A stretch of DNA of 36,728 nucleotides from a virus, in the IMG/VR virus record IMGVR_UViG_3300035034_001476, positions 1-36,728 of that record; one strand, 5' to 3'. The notes under the pieces are model-generated. The model did not search any database, was not told the origin of the DNA, and worked only from the letters and a program-made list of their open reading frames with translations. This document shows positions 2,760-28,345 of this stretch, piece after piece (position 1 is the stretch's first letter; each line of letters begins with the position of its first letter). A program made the translations under genes and the position numbers.

Positions 2760-4112
2760 CTATTTGAAGTTTCCTATAACAAAGTCTGTTCCTATTTTTA
2801 GTTTCTGTGCTACGAAAGTTGCATAGTTTTCTGGATGGTTCCCATCGCTTGATGGTGCATATACTTGGAAGAATTCCAGGAGTGTCATTTCTTTTTGGTA
2901 GTTCCCCTCTGAGTCTTCTGTTGATATTTCCAGCTGTCTTATGAGAGCTTTGTATCCTATCTCATAGGTTGGATATTTACAGAATCCTGCCTTACCGAGT
3001 TCTGCATCTGACTGACCTATGTATCTAATGTTACCAGGGTTATTGTTCTGGTATGAGAGTGAACCTTCGAACCATCCTTCAAATTTCTGGATAGCTTTTG
3101 CCCAGTCATCATACGTTGGATTTGATTCTGTGTCGCTATTAAGTACGGCTCGTGTGTTTTTTCCCACGATCCCGTCAGCTACGAGTCCATTGAATTGCTG
3201 GAATGCTTTTACTGCGGATTGGGTGATTGGTCCAAAGTCACCGTCTGCAGTGATATCAAGTCTTTTTTGTAGTTGAGTTACTTCATATCCTTTTGACCCT
3301 CTTTTCAGGAATCCTGTGAATATGTATTGTTCTTTTTCTTTTTCTTTTTCTTTTATTATTTCTTCTTGAACTTCTACATATACTCTCACACTATAGATAC
3401 CTCCATCCATATCATCAAAGTTAAACGAACCGAAACCTTTATCTCCCCATGATTCATTCCATGAGTTCTTAAAAAGAAAGGTATCGCCATCATATCCTGA
3501 GAATATAAGCCTGTGGAATCCTGAATAATTGTCTGACTTTGAAACCTGGCCTTCTGTTCCATACATCCATCCTTTACTCCAATCCACACCGACTGTGAAG
3601 CATACTGTTCCATATTTTGCGATTGCTCTCTTTATATTATCCTTTGTTGCAGGAACGCTAAGGTAGGCAAGTACCTTTTGTTTTGGTCTATCAGCTATTA
3701 TCTCGGGCGTTTCTACATAAGCAAGATACTCAAGGTATGAAAGGTCGTTATTATCTGGCACGAGACTTCCTTTCGCCACTCCTGTATTCACCATGATTGA
3801 AGATGCATATCGTGAAGCTGTTCCTTGCCATGGTCTACCGTCTATGACTTTGCATTGAGTATACAAATCACGTCTTGAGATATGTTCTGTTTTTCCTTTT
3901 CGTGTTTGCATGACCTGAAGTGCTTCTCCTTCCGCTTGACCAACACATGTACCATTTCTCTTTTGGTCCATTACTGGTTGCTCGTAGAGTTCTATTACCT
4001 TATAAGATTTTGGCACGTCACCTGTAAAAATATCAGCGAAGGTCGGGTCTGTCATTGCCCAGTCTCTGATATCTACATCGTCTATTATTGCTCCAAGTTT
4101 TGGTTTGTTCAT
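2760..4112 (-). CDS. Endolysin-like fusion: papain-like peptidase, peptidoglycan-binding domain, lysozyme-like domain
   Basis: A 450-residue protein with three parts. Residues 40-235 match a papain (C1A) peptidase: Gln50 and Cys56 in QKRNGTC, His200 in GFHRLIFSGYD, Asn216 in KNSWNESWGDKGFG. After a Lys-Glu repeat linker (about 252-262), residues 268-325 are a peptidoglycan-binding 1 domain (LQKRLDITADGDFGPITQ). Residues 335-450 carry NNNPGNIR and a helical fold typical of phage lysozyme-like domains. It lies next to a holin gene and ends at a terminator. The peptidase may cut peptide cross-links, an S-layer or other envelope protein; which one is unknown. There is no signal peptide, consistent with holin-dependent release. 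Confidence 0.88.
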   Translation of the reverse strand: MNKPKLGAIIDDVDIRDWAMTDPTFADIFTGDVPKSYKVIELYEQPVMDQKRNGTCVGQAEGEALQVMQTRKGKTEHISRRDLYTQCKVIDGRPWQGTASRYASSIMVNTGVAKGSLVPDNNDLSYLEYLAYVETPEIIADRPKQKVLAYLSVPATKDNIKRAIAKYGTVCFTVGVDWSKGWMYGTEGQVSKSDNYSGFHRLIFSGYDGDTFLFKNSWNESWGDKGFGSFNFDDMDGGIYSVRVYVEVQEEIIKEKEKEKEQYIFTGFLKRGSKGYEVTQLQKRLDITADGDFGPITQSAVKAFQQFNGLVADGIVGKNTRAVLNSDTESNPTYDDWAKAIQKFEGWFEGSLSYQNNNPGNIRYIGQSDAELGKAGFCKYPTYEIGYKALIRQLEISTEDSEGNYQKEMTLLEFFQVYAPSSDGNHPENYATFVAQKLKIGTDFVIGNFK

Positions 4113-9580: not shown

Positions 9581-9730
9581 TTATTTTTGTTTTTTACGCG
9601 ACCTTTTTGTGGATTTAAGTTTTTCCATTATTTTTTCCCTGTGTTTTTCAAGACTTTTTTCATCTCTCTTAATTCTCTTTTTTGGTTTTTTATGTTTCGC
9701 CTTTCTTATGATGTTGTGATTGTTTTCCAT
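9581..9730 (-). CDS. Small, very basic protein (49 aa)
   Basis: A 49-residue frame, MENNHNIIRKAKHKKPKKRI at the start and KSTKRSRKKQK at the end, ending TAA. About 40% of residues are Lys or Arg. Its ATG lies 25 bases inside the 3' end of the fibre gene, and it ends 16 bases before the coiled-coil gene, so it fills an otherwise empty 141-base gap. A nucleic-acid-binding or nucleoid-like packaging helper is possible. The low complexity lowers certainty, and GGAG sits only one base before the ATG, so initiation by coupling is assumed. Confidence 0.5.
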   Translation of the reverse strand: MENNHNIIRKAKHKKPKKRIKRDEKSLEKHREKIMEKLKSTKRSRKKQK

Positions 9731-13039: not shown

Positions 13040-15091
13040 CTATGTATATTTTATATTATATTCATCCCCATTGAAAGGATACTTTATCTGATAATCTGAT
13101 GACCTCACCAGCACCTCCTCTATTTCGAACAGTCCTACGACTGGGCTTGGGGTCAGTGCGTAGTCCAGGAAGATGCTTTGCGTTAGTGTTGTTGCGATAA
13201 GGTTCTGAGGTTCGGCGTAGATTGTCATTCCTATTCCCACTGCATAGGCTGGAATACTTGCGGTCATGACCTGCACCCCAGGTTCCAGTATGATTGGGAA
13301 CTGTATTGAGTAGGCTGGGATTGTAGCTATAAGGTTCTGCTCGTCTGGGATTATTTCTTGACCAATAACCACCTCACTTACTGGGAGGCTTGCTGTTACT
13401 TCCTGTGGATCCACGCTCACAATCTTACTTATCGCTGGGGTTGCTGTCGGTACAGTAAAGTTTGCGGTCTGAGTTGACGGTGTTATGAATGCATCGGGTG
13501 TCAGTACGTTTGCAGGAGGTGTGCTGAACGTCCCATTTTGCGCGTCTGGGGTGATTATGGCTTGACCTGTTGCGGTTGGTGATTGTGAGCTGAAGGTTCC
13601 CTCCTGGGTGTTTATGTCCAGGCTCTGGTCTGTTATGATCGAGCTACCTGGTAGGCTTGCTGTTACGTTTTGTGACCCTGGAGTTTCTGTGATGTCTGTG
13701 CTTGTACAAACACTTGGCACGTCTGTTGCAAAGACTGGTGAACCTGATGGTGTGAGTGTGTTTCCATTTGCTGAGGCATCAAGATATGTATCGTTGAATA
13801 TCCATTGACCTTGTAGGTTTGTTGTTGAGCCAAGAACTTTACACATATTGGCTGAAATCTCTGACGTTGTTCTGATTGTATCCCAGACTCTAACAAGCCC
13901 TGTTTTTCCATCGAAATATGCAGTAAGAGTATCAGGACGAACACCGATAGCAAAGTCTCCTCCTGTATTATCTATTGAAGTTGCCCCTGTTTGAGCAAGA
14001 GTTGTACTTCCTCCATCTACTCCGTTAATAGTAAATGAAGCGGTTTCAGCTGACACATCAACAGCAACAGCAAGGTGAACCCAGTCAGTTAACTGTGAAC
14101 CTGAAAGTGCGGCGTCTAACTCTATTCTTGTTTTGTTAGCACTGGAATCTTTATAATAAAACTGAAGTTTATTTGATGAGTTTAGGTAAAACGAATAACC
14201 ATACTGATTTGTTTTTGTTTTTCCAACAAGTCTTTGCCCAATTCCAGGACTTTCAAGCTTGAACCAACCCTCTATTGTAATATCCCCTGCTATGGCAAGT
14301 CCTGTTTGACTTGCATCAGCGATAGAAGCATATTGTGAGCTACCCTCCTCCAGGTCAAGGCTTTTTGTTGCATCGCTGTAATCACTATCTATAAGACAAA
14401 AAGTAGGGGCATCTGTCACAAAGGTTGCCGTGTTGTTATTTGTGAGTGTGTTTCCGTTTCCTGAGTTGTCTGTGAGAGCATTATTGAAAGCCCACTCTCC
14501 TTGCAGATTTGTTGTAGCTCCAAGTGCGAGACATGCGTTGTCTTGGATTTCTGATTGTGTTCGTATAACATCCCATATTCTTACATTTGCTATTCGCCCG
14601 TCAAAAAGGTTTGAGGTGCTACCACCTGGCTTTGCACCTATTCCAAAAGCTTCGGTGTTTGAACCAATAGCTGTGGCAGCTGAACTATTAGTTGTTGTTG
14701 ATTGTGCTACTCCATTTATATAAAAAACAACACTTGGAGTAGAAACATCAAGAACTGCAGCTATATGAATCCATTTACCAACGTCACCTGAAACAAAAGC
14801 TGTATCACATTCAAAACTTGAGCTATTAGATGAGTCATCTCCAATAGTAAAAATCATTTTATCGTTACTTGATGAAATCATCAATTGATACCCATCGTCC
14901 ACACCACCTGTTGTCTTTTTTGCAAAAACCACCCTGTTGTTACCTGCCGAGGCTAAAGACTCTTGTTTTATCCAAGCTTCAAAAGTGAGGTCTCCTGTTA
15001 TGCCAAGCCCTGTCTGAGAGGCATCAGTTATAGAAAAGCTCTGTGTAGAGTCTTTCTCGAGGTCTGCTGATTGTGTTCCAAAGTATGCCAT
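13040..15091 (-). CDS. Two-LamG adhesin-like virion protein with C-terminal repeats
   Basis: A 683-residue protein. Residues about 1-225 and 240-455 are two LamG/concanavalin-like domains, each with DASQTGL, then TFEAWIKQES or TIEGWFKLES, then GRIANVRIWDVIRT or GKTGLVRVWDTIRT, then LQGEWAFNN or LQGQWIFND. They are a clear internal duplication. Residues 460-650 hold about eight repeats of 22-24 residues built on Pro-x-x-Gln-x-hydrophobic-Thr-Ala-Ser (SQNVTASLPGS, EQNLIATIPAY, VQVMTASIPAY). LamG domains bind sugars or proteins. The protein may be a head or tail decoration used in adsorption; it lies between capsid and tail genes. Confidence 0.8.
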   Translation of the reverse strand: MAYFGTQSADLEKDSTQSFSITDASQTGLGITGDLTFEAWIKQESLASAGNNRVVFAKKTTGGVDDGYQLMISSSNDKMIFTIGDDSSNSSSFECDTAFVSGDVGKWIHIAAVLDVSTPSVVFYINGVAQSTTTNSSAATAIGSNTEAFGIGAKPGGSTSNLFDGRIANVRIWDVIRTQSEIQDNACLALGATTNLQGEWAFNNALTDNSGNGNTLTNNNTATFVTDAPTFCLIDSDYSDATKSLDLEEGSSQYASIADASQTGLAIAGDITIEGWFKLESPGIGQRLVGKTKTNQYGYSFYLNSSNKLQFYYKDSSANKTRIELDAALSGSQLTDWVHLAVAVDVSAETASFTINGVDGGSTTLAQTGATSIDNTGGDFAIGVRPDTLTAYFDGKTGLVRVWDTIRTTSEISANMCKVLGSTTNLQGQWIFNDTYLDASANGNTLTPSGSPVFATDVPSVCTSTDITETPGSQNVTASLPGSSIITDQSLDINTQEGTFSSQSPTATGQAIITPDAQNGTFSTPPANVLTPDAFITPSTQTANFTVPTATPAISKIVSVDPQEVTASLPVSEVVIGQEIIPDEQNLIATIPAYSIQFPIILEPGVQVMTASIPAYAVGIGMTIYAEPQNLIATTLTQSIFLDYALTPSPVVGLFEIEEVLVRSSDYQIKYPFNGDEYNIKYT

Positions 15092-15146
15092 AGTGATTGT
15101 ATTCCCATCCCCATCCCCCGTAAGGGACAGAGTGGAAACAAAATGT
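15092..15146 (-). other. Short leader between two structural genes
   Basis: This 55-base gap precedes the LamG gene. On the minus strand TCCC and GGGA flank TTACGG, giving a small hairpin, followed by a G-rich run and AATACAATCACT before the ATG. There is no reading frame and no Shine-Dalgarno sequence. Confidence 0.35.
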
Positions 15147-15569
15147 TTATCCCAAGTTTACGATCCCTTCAGCATTCCATTGAATGGTGAAGTTTCCGGC
15201 GCTTGAGCTTTTGTCGCTTCCGAAGTCCAAGTATGCAACGAGCAAGTCGTTTGCCGATACTCCTGTTGACTTGTATATCACTGCTCCTCGGGCGGTTATG
15301 GTTGATGATGACCATGTTACGTCATCCCCATCGTATACTCCCTCGTTGTCAGTGTTATCCTGAGTCACAGCACCGTTGGCAATTTCGGCTCCTCCTGCGG
15401 TGTACCCTGTTCCTGTTACCTCATTGGTCACATCAGCTCGGTCCACGTGAGTGTCCTGGTCTGGTGTGTAGCTCGACGTTACGAGCAGTACATTCATGGT
15501 GTCAGTATCAAGGTCGATACCTCCATTCATGATGTTCATTTTGAATGCGTTGTATATTACATCTGCCAT
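15147..15569 (-). CDS. Putative virion protein (140 aa)
   Basis: A 140-residue acidic beta-rich protein starting MADVIYNAFKMNIMNGGIDL. The pattern of a short helix, then DTDTMNVLLVTSSYTPDQDTH, then GTGYTAGG and VTWSSSTITARGAVIYKS, is common in phage structural proteins annotated as head fibre or decoration proteins. I know no defined biochemical role. It follows a small gene by two bases and precedes the LamG gene, so it is in the virion cluster. No start ambiguity is seen. Confidence 0.75.
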   Translation of the reverse strand: MADVIYNAFKMNIMNGGIDLDTDTMNVLLVTSSYTPDQDTHVDRADVTNEVTGTGYTAGGAEIANGAVTQDNTDNEGVYDGDDVTWSSSTITARGAVIYKSTGVSANDLLVAYLDFGSDKSSSAGNFTIQWNAEGIVNLG

Positions 15570-15915: not shown

Positions 15916-16434
15916 TTAATATGCCCCCTCGGAACCTTCTCCAGGGACCGATTGAGCTTCCTTGATCGCTTTGATTACCTTATCGTTTGATTGTCCAGGC
16001 CTGTAGACATCTTTGTCTATTCCAAGACCTTCTGCGATTTCATTCAAGGCTGTGCGTTTAAGGTCTTCAAGCTCATCTACCTTCCCTGTTTCCTGATTGC
16101 TTAGCTTTGCTTCTTTTTCAGCTAAGGCTTTCTCTCGTGCTTCGATATCCTTTTGTCGATCCTCAAGGTCTTTAAGCATGTCGTTTCGATGTTCTACTGC
16201 ATCTTTAGTATCACTTGGTACCTTGATGAAGATTGAACCGAACTCTGGTCGTTGCTCGAGCTGTTCGATAATGCTTGCGTTATCTGTCTCATAGAAGCCT
16301 CCCTCGAATTGCACGTCTTCCCCTTTGTGACTTAGTACTCTTCCATTTAGTTCTGAAGTGTATGAGGGTTTTAGTACGATTCTTAGCTGGCTATATTTTG
16401 AAACGTATCGTTCTGTTTTGTTTTCTGTTCCCAT
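15916..16434 (-). CDS. Hypothetical virion-cluster protein with coiled coil (172 aa)
   Basis: A 172-residue protein. Residues 10-65 are beta-rich (LRIVLKPSYTSELNGRVLSH, FGSIFIKV), residues 75-130 form a charged coiled coil (DRQKDIEAREKALAEKEAKL), and residues 125-165 form a small helical end domain with LGIDKDVYRPGQSNDKVIKAI. It follows the capsid gene and the pseudoknot element. A head-completion or capsid-associated role is inferred from position. No known family. Confidence 0.7.
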   Translation of the reverse strand: MGTENKTERYVSKYSQLRIVLKPSYTSELNGRVLSHKGEDVQFEGGFYETDNASIIEQLEQRPEFGSIFIKVPSDTKDAVEHRNDMLKDLEDRQKDIEAREKALAEKEAKLSNQETGKVDELEDLKRTALNEIAEGLGIDKDVYRPGQSNDKVIKAIKEAQSVPGEGSEGAY

Positions 16435-16466
16435 GATTATGTGTTTGGTTATTGGTTAATAGGATG

Positions 16467-16535
16467 CCCTTCGATTCCATCCTGATTGCCTTGGCTCCAT
16501 CAATCAGACGAGTGGAGCCAAGTACAATCGAAGGG
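16467..16535 (-). ncRNA. Nested hairpin with pseudoknot directly after the capsid stop codon
   Basis: Minus-strand RNA: CCCUUCGAUU (16535-16526) pairs with AAUCGAAGGG (16476-16467), an outer ten-base stem. Inside it CUUGGCUCCA (16522-16513) pairs with UGGAGCCAAG (16499-16490), a second perfect ten-base stem. The hairpin loop holds CUGAUUG (16507-16501), which is fully complementary to CAAUCAG (16488-16482) in the 3' junction, giving a seven-base pseudoknot. All three helices are perfect. The outer stem starts right after the capsid TAA and no T tract follows. It may protect the capsid mRNA or set expression of the next gene. Confidence 0.85.
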
Positions 16536-17705
16536 TTACAATGCTCCCTTTGATGCGATTGCGTGTCGCTTTTCTTGCTCGAATTGAAGTCCTACCTCTG
16601 ATAGGTATTCGTCAATTACTTCATCGACACCAGGTTGCTGACGGTTTGTCAGAAGCTTAGTGTCACGAGTATTGAGGTATCGGTATGATAGTGTCTCCAT
16701 GTCGAGAACGACACAGTAGTTACCATACTTTGCACCTGACAATAGTTCGTGCTTGATGAGGTTAAGCGTACCGTGAGCTGAGATGTATTTTACGATTGTT
16801 ATACCGTATGTTTGCTCGCTCTGTACGATTGTTACTTTGTTCTTTGCCCATTGATTTACTTGTGAAATGAATGAGGCTGAACAGTAAGCGTACTTTTCGG
16901 TGTTACCGTAGGCGAAAGCTGATTCCAAGAATGTCTCGAATTCAGCTTCTGTATCAACGTTCGCTGTTGCGTATGTTGAGATTTCTGAAAGTACTCCCAT
17001 TGTTGTTCGCTTTGGGTGAGAACCTGTTGTATCTTTGCTCTTCTTTCCAAATAGGAAAGCTCGCTCGATATCAATCATGTGTTCGATTCCTTTCTTTCTT
17101 CGCTGTAGTGCAAAGTCATTCTCCTTGATGAACGTTTGTGTGTTAGCTGATGTTTCAGTAACTCCAAACGGTGTTCGGAAGATTTGACAGTACCCTACTT
17201 TTTCTACTGATGTAGTTCCCTTGATCTCTCGTAGACCCGCACCTTCTTGGTTTGCATTTCCGATGATCCAAACGGTTAGTGATGATAGGTCTTCTGTTCC
17301 AGTTTGTCCACCAATCTCGTTTGATAGCGTAAGCGTATCTGTTGAAATTGCTGTGACAATAAACCTGAATGGTCCTGAAGCGTGGAATATCATAATCACG
17401 TCACCGACTGAAAATCGCGCACCTTCTCCTGATGCAAGCACCACTGATGGTGCTGATGCAATATTCTTCCCTGTTTGTCCTGTAGTTGTCGCACCAGTTC
17501 GTGAACCGAACTCGTCTTCGAACCATTTGAACTCTGGGTCGATTGTTGACTTCTTCTTCATTGCTTGTCCCTTCTTTGTTACTGGATCCTTTCCAGCGTT
17601 TGTCAGGATAGCGAGCATTGGGTATCGGTCTACTTGGAGTAGGGATACCACATCTGCAACGTCATACTTTCGTCCTGCTACACTTGATGTGTCTCTTGTT
17701 GCCAT
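16536..17705 (-). CDS. Major capsid protein (SU10 / DUF5309-like)
   Basis: A 389-residue HK97-fold capsid candidate of the SU10 type. The start ATRDTSSVAGRKYDVADVVSL, the central FIKENDFALQRRKKGIEHMIDIERAFLFGKKS (residues about 190-220), and the C-terminal VLDMETLSYRYLNTRDTKLL agree with the DUF5309/SU10 family, in which the ExAFLFG helix is diagnostic. It is preceded by an acidic scaffold-like gene and followed by the pseudoknot element, as expected for the most highly made virion protein. A leader of about 150 bases precedes it. Confidence 0.9.
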   Translation of the reverse strand: MATRDTSSVAGRKYDVADVVSLLQVDRYPMLAILTNAGKDPVTKKGQAMKKKSTIDPEFKWFEDEFGSRTGATTTGQTGKNIASAPSVVLASGEGARFSVGDVIMIFHASGPFRFIVTAISTDTLTLSNEIGGQTGTEDLSSLTVWIIGNANQEGAGLREIKGTTSVEKVGYCQIFRTPFGVTETSANTQTFIKENDFALQRRKKGIEHMIDIERAFLFGKKSKDTTGSHPKRTTMGVLSEISTYATANVDTEAEFETFLESAFAYGNTEKYAYCSASFISQVNQWAKNKVTIVQSEQTYGITIVKYISAHGTLNLIKHELLSGAKYGNYCVVLDMETLSYRYLNTRDTKLLTNRQQPGVDEVIDEYLSEVGLQFEQEKRHAIASKGAL

Positions 17706-24109: not shown

Positions 24110-24182
24110 TTCGCAAGGTACGACTTGCACGTACTCTCTCGGAGGTATAAGCTCCGTGCTTTCCTTGGTAAGCTACTTGCGA
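24110..24182 (-). tRNA. tRNA-Ile(UAU)
   Basis: A 73-base cloverleaf on the minus strand. Acceptor TCGCAAG/CTTGCGA is a perfect seven-base stem. The D arm is GCTT-ACCAAGGA-AAGC with the GG pair. The anticodon arm CGGAG-CTTATAC-CTCCG gives anticodon UAU, reading AUA (Ile). A five-base variable loop follows, then T arm GTACG-TGCAAGT-CGTAC and discriminator A. No CCA is encoded. U54, C56, A58 and the G53-C61 pair are normal, but position 55 is G where U is expected. The phage uses AUA often, for example four of five Ile codons in the small gene at 32359. Confidence 0.9.
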
Positions 24183-24186
24183 TTGT

Positions 24187-24300
24187 CCCGGAGATTACAC
24201 TCCCCGGGTTAGGTGACCGCTTTTAGACTTCACCTATAAATTCAGTACGTACTGCTCCACCCTGATGGGCAGGCTTCAGGGGATGTTCTCCCCTGCTTGC
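24187..24300 (-). ncRNA. Structured non-coding region before the tRNA
   Basis: No gene fits here. The minus strand can form four hairpins in order: AGGGGA/TCCCCT inside GGCA/TGCC (24266-24300), the palindrome CAGTACGTACTG (24242-24253), TAGGTGA/TCACCTA with a 13-base loop (24210-24236), and CCCGGGGA/TCTCCGGG (24187-24208, one G-U). No second cloverleaf could be built. It lies between an operon end and the packaging genes, so a structured RNA or a terminase-recognition (cos or pac) region are the main options. Confidence 0.6.
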
Positions 24301-24304
24301 CTAC

Positions 24305-25966: not shown

Positions 25967-26203
25967 TTATTGTTCGCTTAACCTTTCTTTTAATGAATCC
26001 CTTTCGTTGTCCGACATGAAGGTATGAATAAGGTGTTCTTTGTCGTTGAGTATCTGGTAGTACTTCTTGTCCGAGATTGCGAAGTCACATTCTGGGCAGG
26101 CTTGGACGTACGTTGCTTCTGGAACCCTCTTTAATGCTTTGTTGCAACATGGGCAGTTTCTGTATACCAGGTTCTGCCATTTTTTTCTTATTTGTTCGGT
26201 CAT
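25967..26203 (-). CDS. Zinc-ribbon protein (78 aa)
   Basis: A 78-residue protein with NCPCCNKAL (residues 16-24) and ACPECDFAIS (about 35-44): two CxxC knuckles 16 residues apart, so a rubredoxin-like zinc ribbon. The C-terminal half is charged and helical. The gene's ATG overlaps the TGA of the first methyltransferase gene by four bases (ATGA). Zinc ribbons of this kind often bind nucleic acid or partners. Specific function unknown. Confidence 0.75.
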   Translation of the reverse strand: MTEQIRKKWQNLVYRNCPCCNKALKRVPEATYVQACPECDFAISDKKYYQILNDKEHLIHTFMSDNERDSLKERLSEQ

Positions 26204-26955
26204 ATCTTTTTTGCTTTAGCTCCTGTAAGTATTTCCCACCGTTCTATGATAGTTGCGATGTATTCATGATCCAGTTCAATCATTACACAATTCCTCTTCA
26301 GGTGTTCGCATGCGATGAGTGTTGAGCCTGACCCTCCGAATGGATCGTATATCGTTTCGTTTACTTTTGCGCTGTTTGGTATGAGCTTTCGGAGGAGTCC
26401 TATTGGCTTCATGGTTGGGTGTAGCTTTGCCTTTGCTGGCTTGGGGTGGTTTATAACGCTCTTTGCCTTGCTCTGCTCCATTTTATGCTTACCGTGCCAC
26501 CCGTATGCTATGACCTCGTGCATCGGAAGGAAGTCTTTTCTTCCTACTACTACGGTGTTCTTTACCCACACGAGCATTTGGCTGTAGTAGAATCCTGACA
26601 TTGATAGTCCTTCTCGGAGTGATGGGAACATTATGTCGCTGTTGAATATGTAGTAGGCATTGTATGGGGTCAGGTGCTTCTTGATTGGATCCAGCCACTT
26701 ACTTGTGAATATTTTATATTCCTCGTCTGTTTGGATGTGGTCGTTTTGAATCTTCTTGACGTTCTCTTTCCCGAGCTTGGCGAAGTCTTTCTTTCCTTCT
26801 ACGTATGCCACACCGTATGGTGGGTCCGTGAGTATCACGCGAACCTTCTCTTTGTGTACTTCCATCACTTTGTCCACGAACTCTGAGTCCATGCTTGAGC
26901 CACATCCTAAGGTGTGTGGTCCGAGTTTGAATATGTCTCCTTGTTTTATGTTCAT
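26200..26955 (-). CDS. DNA adenine methyltransferase (beta type)
   Basis: A 251-residue methyltransferase. Residues near 42-48 have TDPPYGVAY, the catalytic DPPY motif, and residues near 208-225 have YDPFGGSGSTLIACE, the AdoMet-binding motif. DPPY before FxGxG is the beta-type order for N6-adenine or N4-cytosine enzymes. The N-terminus MNIKQGDIFKLGPHTLGCG is the hinge that, in many phages, joins a ParB domain to the methyltransferase; the ParB domain is missing here. It may protect phage DNA from host restriction. Overlaps its neighbours by four bases on each side. Confidence 0.92.
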   Translation of the reverse strand: MNIKQGDIFKLGPHTLGCGSSMDSEFVDKVMEVHKEKVRVILTDPPYGVAYVEGKKDFAKLGKENVKKIQNDHIQTDEEYKIFTSKWLDPIKKHLTPYNAYYIFNSDIMFPSLREGLSMSGFYYSQMLVWVKNTVVVGRKDFLPMHEVIAYGWHGKHKMEQSKAKSVINHPKPAKAKLHPTMKPIGLLRKLIPNSAKVNETIYDPFGGSGSTLIACEHLKRNCVMIELDHEYIATIIERWEILTGAKAKKI

Positions 26956-27566
26956 GATGTTAGTGATTTATATAGTTTTAATGTCGACTCCACATCTCCG
27001 AGTGCGCGGTGAGCTGTTCCCATTTCTATTCCCCTTTCTTCACAGGATAGCTTCAGGTTGTACTTCACTCCCTTTCTTATTATTTCGTTTACTCTCCCTG
27101 CGAAGGTTCGGAAAGTTTCATTGTACTTCTGTTTCATTCCAAGCTTATCTGCTTTTACCATGACGGCAGTATCAAGTCCTGTAGTAAAAAGTTTATCTTC
27201 AAGTCTTGCGAGGTCCCCTTTACTATATAGTCCAAACTTATCTACCTCCCCTATAAGGAATGGTATGTCAAACTTGAATCCATTATGTGTTACATTTGCG
27301 TGGGAGTTTGATATGTGTCCGAGGAACTCTTCCAGGGCTTTCTCTTGGTCCTGCCCTTCAGCGTTCTTCTCCTCTGTTGTGATTCCTGTTATGTCGGTTA
27401 TGATCGGTAGGATGTTTCCTCTTGTTTTTAGTAGCCAAGACTTACTGCTTAGGACTTCTCCTCCATGCACGTGTGACATTCCTATCTCCAGGATGTTTGA
27501 ATTCTTGTGACTCAGTCCTGTTGTTTCTAAGTCCCATACTATGTACTCTATTGGGTATTCTCTCAT
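26952..27566 (-). CDS. DEDDh 3'-5' exonuclease (DnaQ-like)
   Basis: A 204-residue exonuclease. Motif I is VWDLETTGLS (Asp11 and Glu13), motif II THNGFKFDIPF (Asp at about 106), and motif III AHRALGDVEST (His and Asp near 187-192), so the full DEDDh set is present. The fold is that of the DnaQ proofreading domain. It lies between the two methyltransferase genes, with four-base overlaps. No phage DNA polymerase is in the genome, so it may partner a host polymerase or act in recombination. Confidence 0.93.
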   Translation of the reverse strand: MREYPIEYIVWDLETTGLSHKNSNILEIGMSHVHGGEVLSSKSWLLKTRGNILPIITDITGITTEEKNAEGQDQEKALEEFLGHISNSHANVTHNGFKFDIPFLIGEVDKFGLYSKGDLARLEDKLFTTGLDTAVMVKADKLGMKQKYNETFRTFAGRVNEIIRKGVKYNLKLSCEERGIEMGTAHRALGDVESTLKLYKSLTS

Positions 27567-28345
27567 ATCTTTTTTGCTTTTTGATTACTAAAGTTTTCCC
27601 AACGCTGGACTGCTATGTCTACGAGTACGGGGTCCGACTCCATTACCCTTGCCTTTCTTTTTAGTTGCTGTGAAGCGATGATTGTGTTTCCAGCTCCTCC
27701 GAATAAGTCAAGGATGATATGCCCTGGGGCTGTACATCTCTTGAGTGGCTTCTCCGCCAGGGTTACTGGCTTTTGGTTTGGAGTGTGCATGTCGGTGTCG
27801 TAGTTCTTTTTGTCGAGCCAGATTGTCAGCATGTCTTGTATCTGGTCGGTGACCTGATTTCCTTCCCCTATCTCAGCGTTCAGTATCTCGTTTAGGCTCT
27901 TTATGTTTGTGTTCAGGAATGGTTTACCTCTGGTCCCATACACACATGGCTCGTATATCTTATTGAATGCCAGGCTTGGTTTTAGTGTCTGGTCTGTTTT
28001 TATCCATAGACATACCCTTTCACTCTCTGTTTTGTTTGCATGGTATATCTCCTGGATAAGCCAGATGTACTTTTCGTCTGTCCAGTAGAATATGTGAGTG
28101 TTTGGTTTTGAGTACCCCAGGGCTTGCTGGATACTCAGGTCTATAAACTTTGCATACTCTGCTATCTTCTTACTCTTATCTTTTACCCCGTTGTAGTTTC
28201 CTTCCCCTTTCAAGCCTCGACTGTAGTCATGACTGATACTGTTTGGTGGGTCACAGTAGACCATGTCCGCCAGGTCTTCTTGCATGAGAGTATCCATGTC
28301 TTCTGCATTGAGTGGGTCTCCACACATGATTCGGTGGTCTCCCAT
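27563..28345 (-). CDS. DNA methyltransferase half of a split ParB-methyltransferase
   Basis: A 260-residue enzyme. The N-terminus MGDHRIMCGDPLN is the usual linker residue run that follows a ParB domain in fused ParB-methyltransferases. Residues about 29-36 have VYCDPPNSIS, a DPPN version of the catalytic motif, and residues near 215-230 have LDLFGGAGNTIIA for AdoMet. The gene starts at an ATG that follows the TAA of the ParB-like gene with no gap. Upstream and downstream frames are continuous apart from that single stop. Activity may depend on the partner chain. The DPPN motif could alter specificity. Confidence 0.88.
   Translation of the reverse strand: MGDHRIMCGDPLNAEDMDTLMQEDLADMVYCDPPNSISHDYSRGLKGEGNYNGVKDKSKKIAEYAKFIDLSIQQALGYSKPNTHIFYWTDEKYIWLIQEIYHANKTESERVCLWIKTDQTLKPSLAFNKIYEPCVYGTRGKPFLNTNIKSLNEILNAEIGEGNQVTDQIQDMLTIWLDKKNYDTDMHTPNQKPVTLAEKPLKRCTAPGHIILDLFGGAGNTIIASQQLKRKARVMESDPVLVDIAVQRWENFSNQKAKKI

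Follow-up and report, generated by a model that had tools for sequence, protein, structure and literature searches.

A conserved double-stem pseudoknot RNA behind the major capsid gene in a clade of probable Patescibacteria phages, a possible substitute for the capsid terminator

Virus record IMGVR_UViG_3300035034_001476, analysed here over its full 36,728 nt (the window), carries all of its genes on the minus strand. The major capsid protein gene ends with the TAA stop codon at 16538-16536 and is followed, on the same strand, by an element of 69 nt, which reads 5' to 3' from 16535 to 16467 and precedes a gene of unassigned function. The region comprises the following features:

16536 to 17705, minus strand: major capsid protein gene, 389 aa (PF17236 SU10_MCP, E 1.2e-41; phrog_1328 major head protein, E 6.9e-29)
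16526 to 16535, minus strand: 5' strand of the outer stem S1, CCCTTCGATT; inverted repeat, covaries in relatives
16513 to 16522, minus strand: 5' strand of the inner stem S2, CTTGGCTCCA; inverted repeat, covaries, with 8 of 11 pairs double-changed in one sub-clade
16501 to 16507, minus strand: 5' strand of the pseudoknot helix S3, CTGATTG, in the hairpin loop; pairing with the 3' junction, kept in relatives
16490 to 16499, minus strand: 3' strand of S2, TGGAGCCAAG; inverted repeat
16482 to 16488, minus strand: 3' strand of S3, CAATCAG, one base past the S2 3' strand; pairing with the loop, kept in relatives
16467 to 16476, minus strand: 3' strand of S1, AATCGAAGGG; inverted repeat
16462 to 16482, minus strand: possible helix S4, GGATG (16482-16478) with CATCC (16466-16462); seen by eye and present in the minimum-energy fold
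15916 to 16434, minus strand: next gene, 172 aa, function unassigned; start 32 nt after S1, A-rich leader, no Shine-Dalgarno sequence

In RNA order, the UAA stop is followed by CCCUUCGAUU (S1), GUA, CUUGGCUCCA (S2), CUCGU, CUGAUUG (S3) and A, and then by UGGAGCCAAG (S2'), G, CAAUCAG (S3'), GAUGG, AAUCGAAGGG (S1'), CAUCC and the A-rich leader, with the next ATG 32 nt past S1'. All pairs are present in S1 (10 of 10), S2 (10 of 10) and S3 (7 of 7, extendable by one G-U). The earlier note on this DNA, which had described perfect ten-base outer and inner stems and a seven-base complement between loop and junction, starting directly after the capsid stop, was thus accurate: S1 opens at the base following TAA. 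S1 and S2 are the only perfect 10-nt inverted repeats with such spacing in the neighbourhood. S4 is a possible fourth helix of the element; it encloses the S1 3' strand and overlaps S3 by one base, so that it competes there. By eye, and uncounted, it occurs in the window and, unevenly, in several close relatives, and it is absent in others.

The Shine-Dalgarno sequence is absent in nearly all genes of the window phage. An IRES-like start of the next gene was considered and rejected, since this sequence is missing from almost every gene of the window phage. The commonest 7-mer in the zone before ORF starts is AAGGTCG, which is followed by an A-rich leader; of its 64 copies on the gene strand, 56 precede an ORF start by 27-65 nt (median about 37), and the other strand holds only 10 copies. 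The motif AAAGGTCGA was seen in the window (upstream of 17705, near 9590, and upstream of 32384) and in the relatives L014, L016, L018, L019, L020, L046, L048, L055, L101, L108, and L111; in one sub-clade it directly follows the pseudoknot. Its distribution makes it a candidate for a phage-wide promoter or translation-start signal.

Several other features of the window were recorded. A tRNA-like gene at 24110-24182 (minus strand; Rfam tRNA, 53.9 bits, E 3.7e-11; anticodon UAU by eye) was missed by ARAGORN; it is preceded by a strongly folded stretch at 24183-24304 (minus strand), and the whole 195 nt fold with -78.8 kcal/mol (z -5.5). Positions 1706-1779 contain a cluster of overlapping palindromes (31-nt arms, 77%) with words like AATCGATTTG and ACCGAAACGG, a possible operator or origin. 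Two genes for DNA methyltransferases, both of family phrog_498, are located only about 600 nt apart at 26200-26955 and 27563-28345 (minus strand). A long hairpin at 15092-15146 (minus strand; -22.6 kcal/mol, no T tract) lies between the genes 15147-15569 and 13040-15091 and ends near the next start codon.

The three-helix arrangement is not explained by chance. Among 394 shuffled strands, both strands of 197 dinucleotide-shuffled versions of the whole window, none contained a set of S1, S2 and S3 of the observed strength or any three-helix arrangement above the thresholds applied; the best summed score of the three-helix descriptor was 53 in the shuffles versus 68.5 observed, and the descriptor matched the window at one place only. 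The nested RNA fold of the 69 nt, with the pseudoknot left out, has an energy of -33.5 kcal/mol (z -5.2). In longer context, the nested minimum-energy fold swaps S1 for an extended S2 plus a downstream hairpin; this alternative is not kept in relatives, whereas S1, S2 and S3 are.

Capsid searches yielded about 90 relatives, of which 13 lie in genome bins, and the 200 nt past each capsid stop were inspected for the element. The S1-S2-S3 layout follows the capsid stop in the window and in 24 relatives, with capsid identities down to about 50%, directly at the stop or within about 80 nt past it. In 433 kb of relatives' flanks, both strands included, the full element was found only at the post-capsid site, once per genome; the only other strong descriptor matches were reverse complements of the same sites. 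The descriptor scan was chosen for this survey; a covariance model of S1 and S2 from one sub-clade failed to cross sub-clades, recovering its own seven seeds plus three weak reverse-strand matches (E 1 or worse) and missing the other sub-clades because their sequences are too divergent.

Some close relatives do not have the element, and it is therefore not indispensable; L009 and L010, for instance, have a gap of 45 nt only. On the capsid tree, the presence of the element needs five changes and extends to all main branches of the clade, which suggests an old element with several losses or replacements. Other arrangements were observed at the same site. L002, L003, and L064 (73-77% capsid identity) have a strong double hairpin of another kind instead of the pseudoknot. 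In the sub-clade of Microgenomates proviruses (L011, L012, L013, L015, L017, L049, and L102-L107), a conserved micro-ORF of about 20 codons, located within about 90 nt past the capsid stop and ending in KSLHTFLLS(A/V)VA, replaces it and is followed by a GGGGTGAGCGTTATCACCCC-like hairpin (by eye). An apparent S2 plus S3 in the group of L011, L012, and L102 was not accepted as a member, being explained, by eye, by the conserved micro-ORF KSLHTFLLSAVA. The sister clade L066-L098 plus L113 (about 35% capsid identity) possesses another structured post-capsid region, in which GGGACGATAAATCA and CCCGAC..CACGGGTNATTG are conserved; two loop-to-upstream pseudoknots can be made out there by eye, the first of which was backed by a simple scan in about 6 of 15 only.

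A pseudoknot near the capsid stop, together with the long open frame past the stop in L021, would suit a recoding element that lengthens the capsid protein by stop readthrough or frameshift. We regard this as barely credible and rejected it: in several members the element is placed 20-80 nt behind the stop, and the reading frames that follow the stop show no conservation and are mostly short.

Element sequences are mostly unalignable between sub-clades, and S3 was therefore tested directly. Regions were chosen by S1 and S2 alone (27 of 45), and pairing of the loop with the 3' junction was then asked. Of these 27 regions, 24 contain S3; comparison with shuffled loops and junctions gives p<=0.013 for every one of them, and when each S3 sequence type is represented by a single member the p values combine to about 2e-21. 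Loops joined to the junctions of other phages reached a mean score of 8.8 versus 18.7 for the native combinations. Within a seven-member sub-clade, both bases have changed in four S1 pairs and eight S2 pairs, 12 of the 26 in all, and 96% of the cells are paired, versus 31-45% when the partner is shifted by one to three columns. This sub-clade shows hardly any variation in S3, whose sequences in the other sub-clades are unrelated. The earlier note had made its fold depend on compensatory changes at homologous sites; such changes were found, with S1, S2 and S3 all re-formed. On this comparative evidence, the three helices are upheld by compensatory change, and the element is a real, selected RNA element because it occurs once per genome, only at the post-capsid site, in 433 kb.

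The lengths of its parts are kept, the sequences are not. S2 measures 7-11 bp in a conservative parse (12-13 when extended), mostly 10-11; S3 has 6-9 bp and S1 6-11 bp. The first linker is mostly 3-5 nt and the second mostly 1-5 nt long, the third (S2' to S3') has 0-3 nt, and S3' adjoins S1' in most members. No loop base is invariant in all clades. These kept lengths suit a mechanical role better than a sequence-read one. As in H-type pseudoknots, the loop pairs, with covariation, with bases outside its hairpin. In the usual coaxial stack of this type, however, a third linker of 0-3 nt cannot cross a stem of 10-11 bp, and the third linker of the element (0-3 nt versus 7-11 bp of S2) is too short for that geometry. 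In a crude bead model, which addresses the feasibility of helix coexistence only and does not single out 10-11 bp as optimal, S2 and S3 can both form provided that their helices cross; this fits six of seven parameter sets, with a small violation in L048, and for the shortest linkers strain rises once S2 exceeds about 12 bp.

The next start codon follows the end of the element at 14-62 nt, mostly 32-42 nt, across members. A pseudoknot succeeded by an unstructured A-rich leader recalls the T4 gene 32 site, where a pseudoknot bound by gp32 lies ahead of an unstructured leader (PMC3014915). By analogy, a phage protein might bind the pseudoknot and cover the leader of the next gene as a translational operator. 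We consider such an operator improbable, given that conserved unpaired bases are almost absent across clades, that the gap to the start codon varies, and that no recognised RNA- or DNA-binding domain was found in the 172-aa product of the next gene.

No family of Rfam 15 matched the window at gathering thresholds; permissive filters at 16400-16600 returned sub-threshold chance matches only, and none was found at the element in those relatives' loci that were searched. This agrees with the earlier note, which did not recognise the fold among described RNA families. A described pseudoknot at the 3' side of a phage capsid gene was not found in a literature search whose coverage left most subscription journals outside. 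The element is thus a new structured-RNA family, absent from Rfam 15: its kind, a viral cis-acting pseudoknot RNA, is known, and its layout is new. Elsewhere in the relatives, LOOT RNA (RF03000, 79 and 76 bits) was detected at L046:814-938 and L110:732-852, about 4 kb upstream of the capsid gene; the two carriers are nearly identical, and one is in a Doudnabacteria bin.

The longest T run near the element (within 20 nt, in the window and most members) is 2; L020, L021, and L046 are exceptional with four T. Of the features of an intrinsic terminator, the GC-rich hairpin is present (S2, S1), the U run directly after it is absent, and no terminator is predicted, so that the absence of a T tract, and hence of an ordinary terminator, had been noted correctly. 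Terminators in the post-capsid regions of the CPR-type relatives are essentially missing (one weak match). Hairpins with U tract do occupy the same gap in distant phages with a homologous capsid, namely Roseobacter CRP-810, Pseudomonas 119X/PaP2, Vibrio ABTNL-3, and Aeromonas P5, and strong hairpins occur at this site in Kuura, Mel-JY34, Tiera, and a Desulfofustis phage. This homologous position would fit a U-tract-independent terminator or pause site that yields excess capsid transcripts, like T7 T-phi after gene 10. Such a function is nevertheless rather unlikely: nearly all members are devoid of a U tract, the window phage has a normal, clean terminator with U tract at 2721-2749, after gene 2760-4112, and termination gives no reason for the conservation of S3.

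Most of the 13 binned relatives belong to Patescibacteria (Woesebacteria, Daviesbacteria, Shapirobacteria, Gottesmanbacteria, and Doudnabacteria), and the host of the window phage, judged by these bins, is probably a member of Patescibacteria (CPR). Binning is not fully reliable, since one nearly identical phage is present in a Doudnabacteria and an Anaerolineaceae bin (L110/L109). The host bins encode PNPase (11 of 11), RNase J (9 of 11), and RNase III (10 of 11). An RNase R/II-type enzyme over the cut-off was identified in 1 of 11 bins (that of the distant L113, 39% identical), and a partial match in a Chloroflexota bin; a missing nuclease is weak evidence here because the bins are incomplete.

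RNase III and two stems of about 10 bp could point to a processing site, at which this or another endonuclease would cut the stems and part the capsid mRNA from the downstream mRNA. RNase III favours about two turns of continuous duplex, however, and the stems have 7-12 bp and are broken by a junction; the pseudoknot would also be superfluous. We rate a processing site as very unlikely.

RNase J could instead meet the element from the 5' side. After a cleavage upstream, 5'-to-3' decay would halt at the knot and the RNA of the downstream virion genes would be spared, as with the exonuclease-resistant xrRNAs of eukaryotic viruses. In plant-virus xrRNAs, a stem-loop pairs through its apical loop with bases 3' of the stem, and the 3' end thereby wraps the 5' end (PMC12191101); the pairing of S2 and S3 follows the plan of a loop pairing just 3' of its own stem. 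Moreover, xrRNAs are without sequence similarity to each other, and a flaviviral xrRNA halts bacterial RNase J1 in vitro (PMC5760640). The frequency of RNase J in the host bins and the short distance from the element to the next start codon are also in line with such a block. On the other side, the 5' strand of the element is paired in S1 rather than threaded free through a ring, the non-canonical contacts of plant xrRNAs are not recognisable, with no invariant loop base, and the position suits the 3' end of the capsid mRNA at least equally. An xrRNA-like block of RNase J is thus unlikely, if less so than the operator; together the two are close rivals of the explanation that we put forward.

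That explanation, which we hold with slightly less than even confidence, is that the element is a terminator substitute: it would mark and protect the 3' end of the capsid mRNA, with transcription continuing. Among the roles suggested in the earlier note (3'-end protection, processing, control of the next gene), the position of the element speaks most for the first, protecting or marking where the capsid mRNA ends, since exactly this place is taken by true terminators or strong hairpins in relatives with other hosts; the remaining suggestions are less likely. Terminator structures are known to shield bacterial mRNA 3' ends (PMC3997798). The element may thus replace the terminator of phages with homologous capsids and other hosts, a step that stands or falls, at not quite even chances, with the explanation as a whole.

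The mechanism would be as follows. The hairpin S2 forms about one helical turn, its loop pairs with the bases just behind the hairpin (S3), and S1 seals the whole. Having no U tract, the element would release no RNA polymerase, and the downstream virion genes would therefore still be transcribed. Exonucleases would be halted mechanically by the sealed, crossed fold, PNPase on arrival from the 3' side and perhaps RNase J from the 5' side, and the capsid mRNA would as a result be stable and abundant and have a defined 3' end. Exonuclease blocking and its direction share the just-under-even standing of the explanation to which they belong. Two points speak against this explanation. Blocks of the xrRNA type are, to our knowledge, described for decay from the 5' side and not for decay from the 3' side. 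The pseudoknot is also conserved although a plain strong hairpin would already stop PNPase, which suggests a more demanding job. It is conceivable, if doubtful, that the element represents an undescribed class of viral exonuclease-blocking RNA in CPR phages. Such an RNA would be a pseudoknot of crossed helices, coded by length and not by sequence; by halting RNase J, PNPase or both, it would determine where the capsid message ends and how long it lasts, as an independent bacterial counterpart of eukaryotic viral xrRNAs.

Across a deep clade of phages, a covariation-backed structured RNA is thus fixed behind the capsid gene; the hosts are probably Patescibacteria, whose phages have seen hardly any experimental work. 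Our data suggest that these phages may have swapped the usual post-capsid terminator for a knotted RNA that lets transcription pass. If exonuclease blocking holds true, the element would be the bacterial equivalent of viral xrRNAs and a small mRNA stabiliser that tolerates sequence change.

Comparison with known systems places the element between several types. It shares with the intrinsic post-capsid terminators (T7 T-phi and those of CRP-810, 119X/PaP2, ABTNL-3, and Aeromonas P5) the location right behind a homologous capsid gene and a strong stem, but has two nested stems with a pseudoknot of covarying loop pairing in place of a U tract. Like REP/BIME and other 3' stabilising hairpins, it is an intercistronic structure that could protect upstream mRNA; unlike them, it is pseudoknotted and no repeated palindrome, with a single copy per phage and none elsewhere in 433 kb. 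The gene 32 mRNA of T4/T2 also has a phage mRNA pseudoknot ahead of an unstructured A/U-rich leader, but the long S2 and very short third linker of our element argue against a coaxial stack, it is enclosed by S1, and a binding protein is only putative. From plant-virus xrRNAs it differs in being part of the mRNA of a DNA phage of bacteria, in an extra outer stem S1 that closes over the pseudoknot, and in non-canonical contacts, which are not recognisable in an element known here from its sequence. Because of this outer stem and the lack of recognisable conserved contacts, we do not claim it to be an xrRNA, only that, by analogy, it may work like one. The plant-virus xrRNA of the tombusvirus/solemovirus type (e.g. 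ST9a, PDB 9CFN) is nonetheless its closest structural precedent: in both, bases 3' of the stem pair with its apical loop, over 9 bp in the plant-virus RNA and 6-9 bp in the phage element, and in both the fold is kept without sequence conservation.
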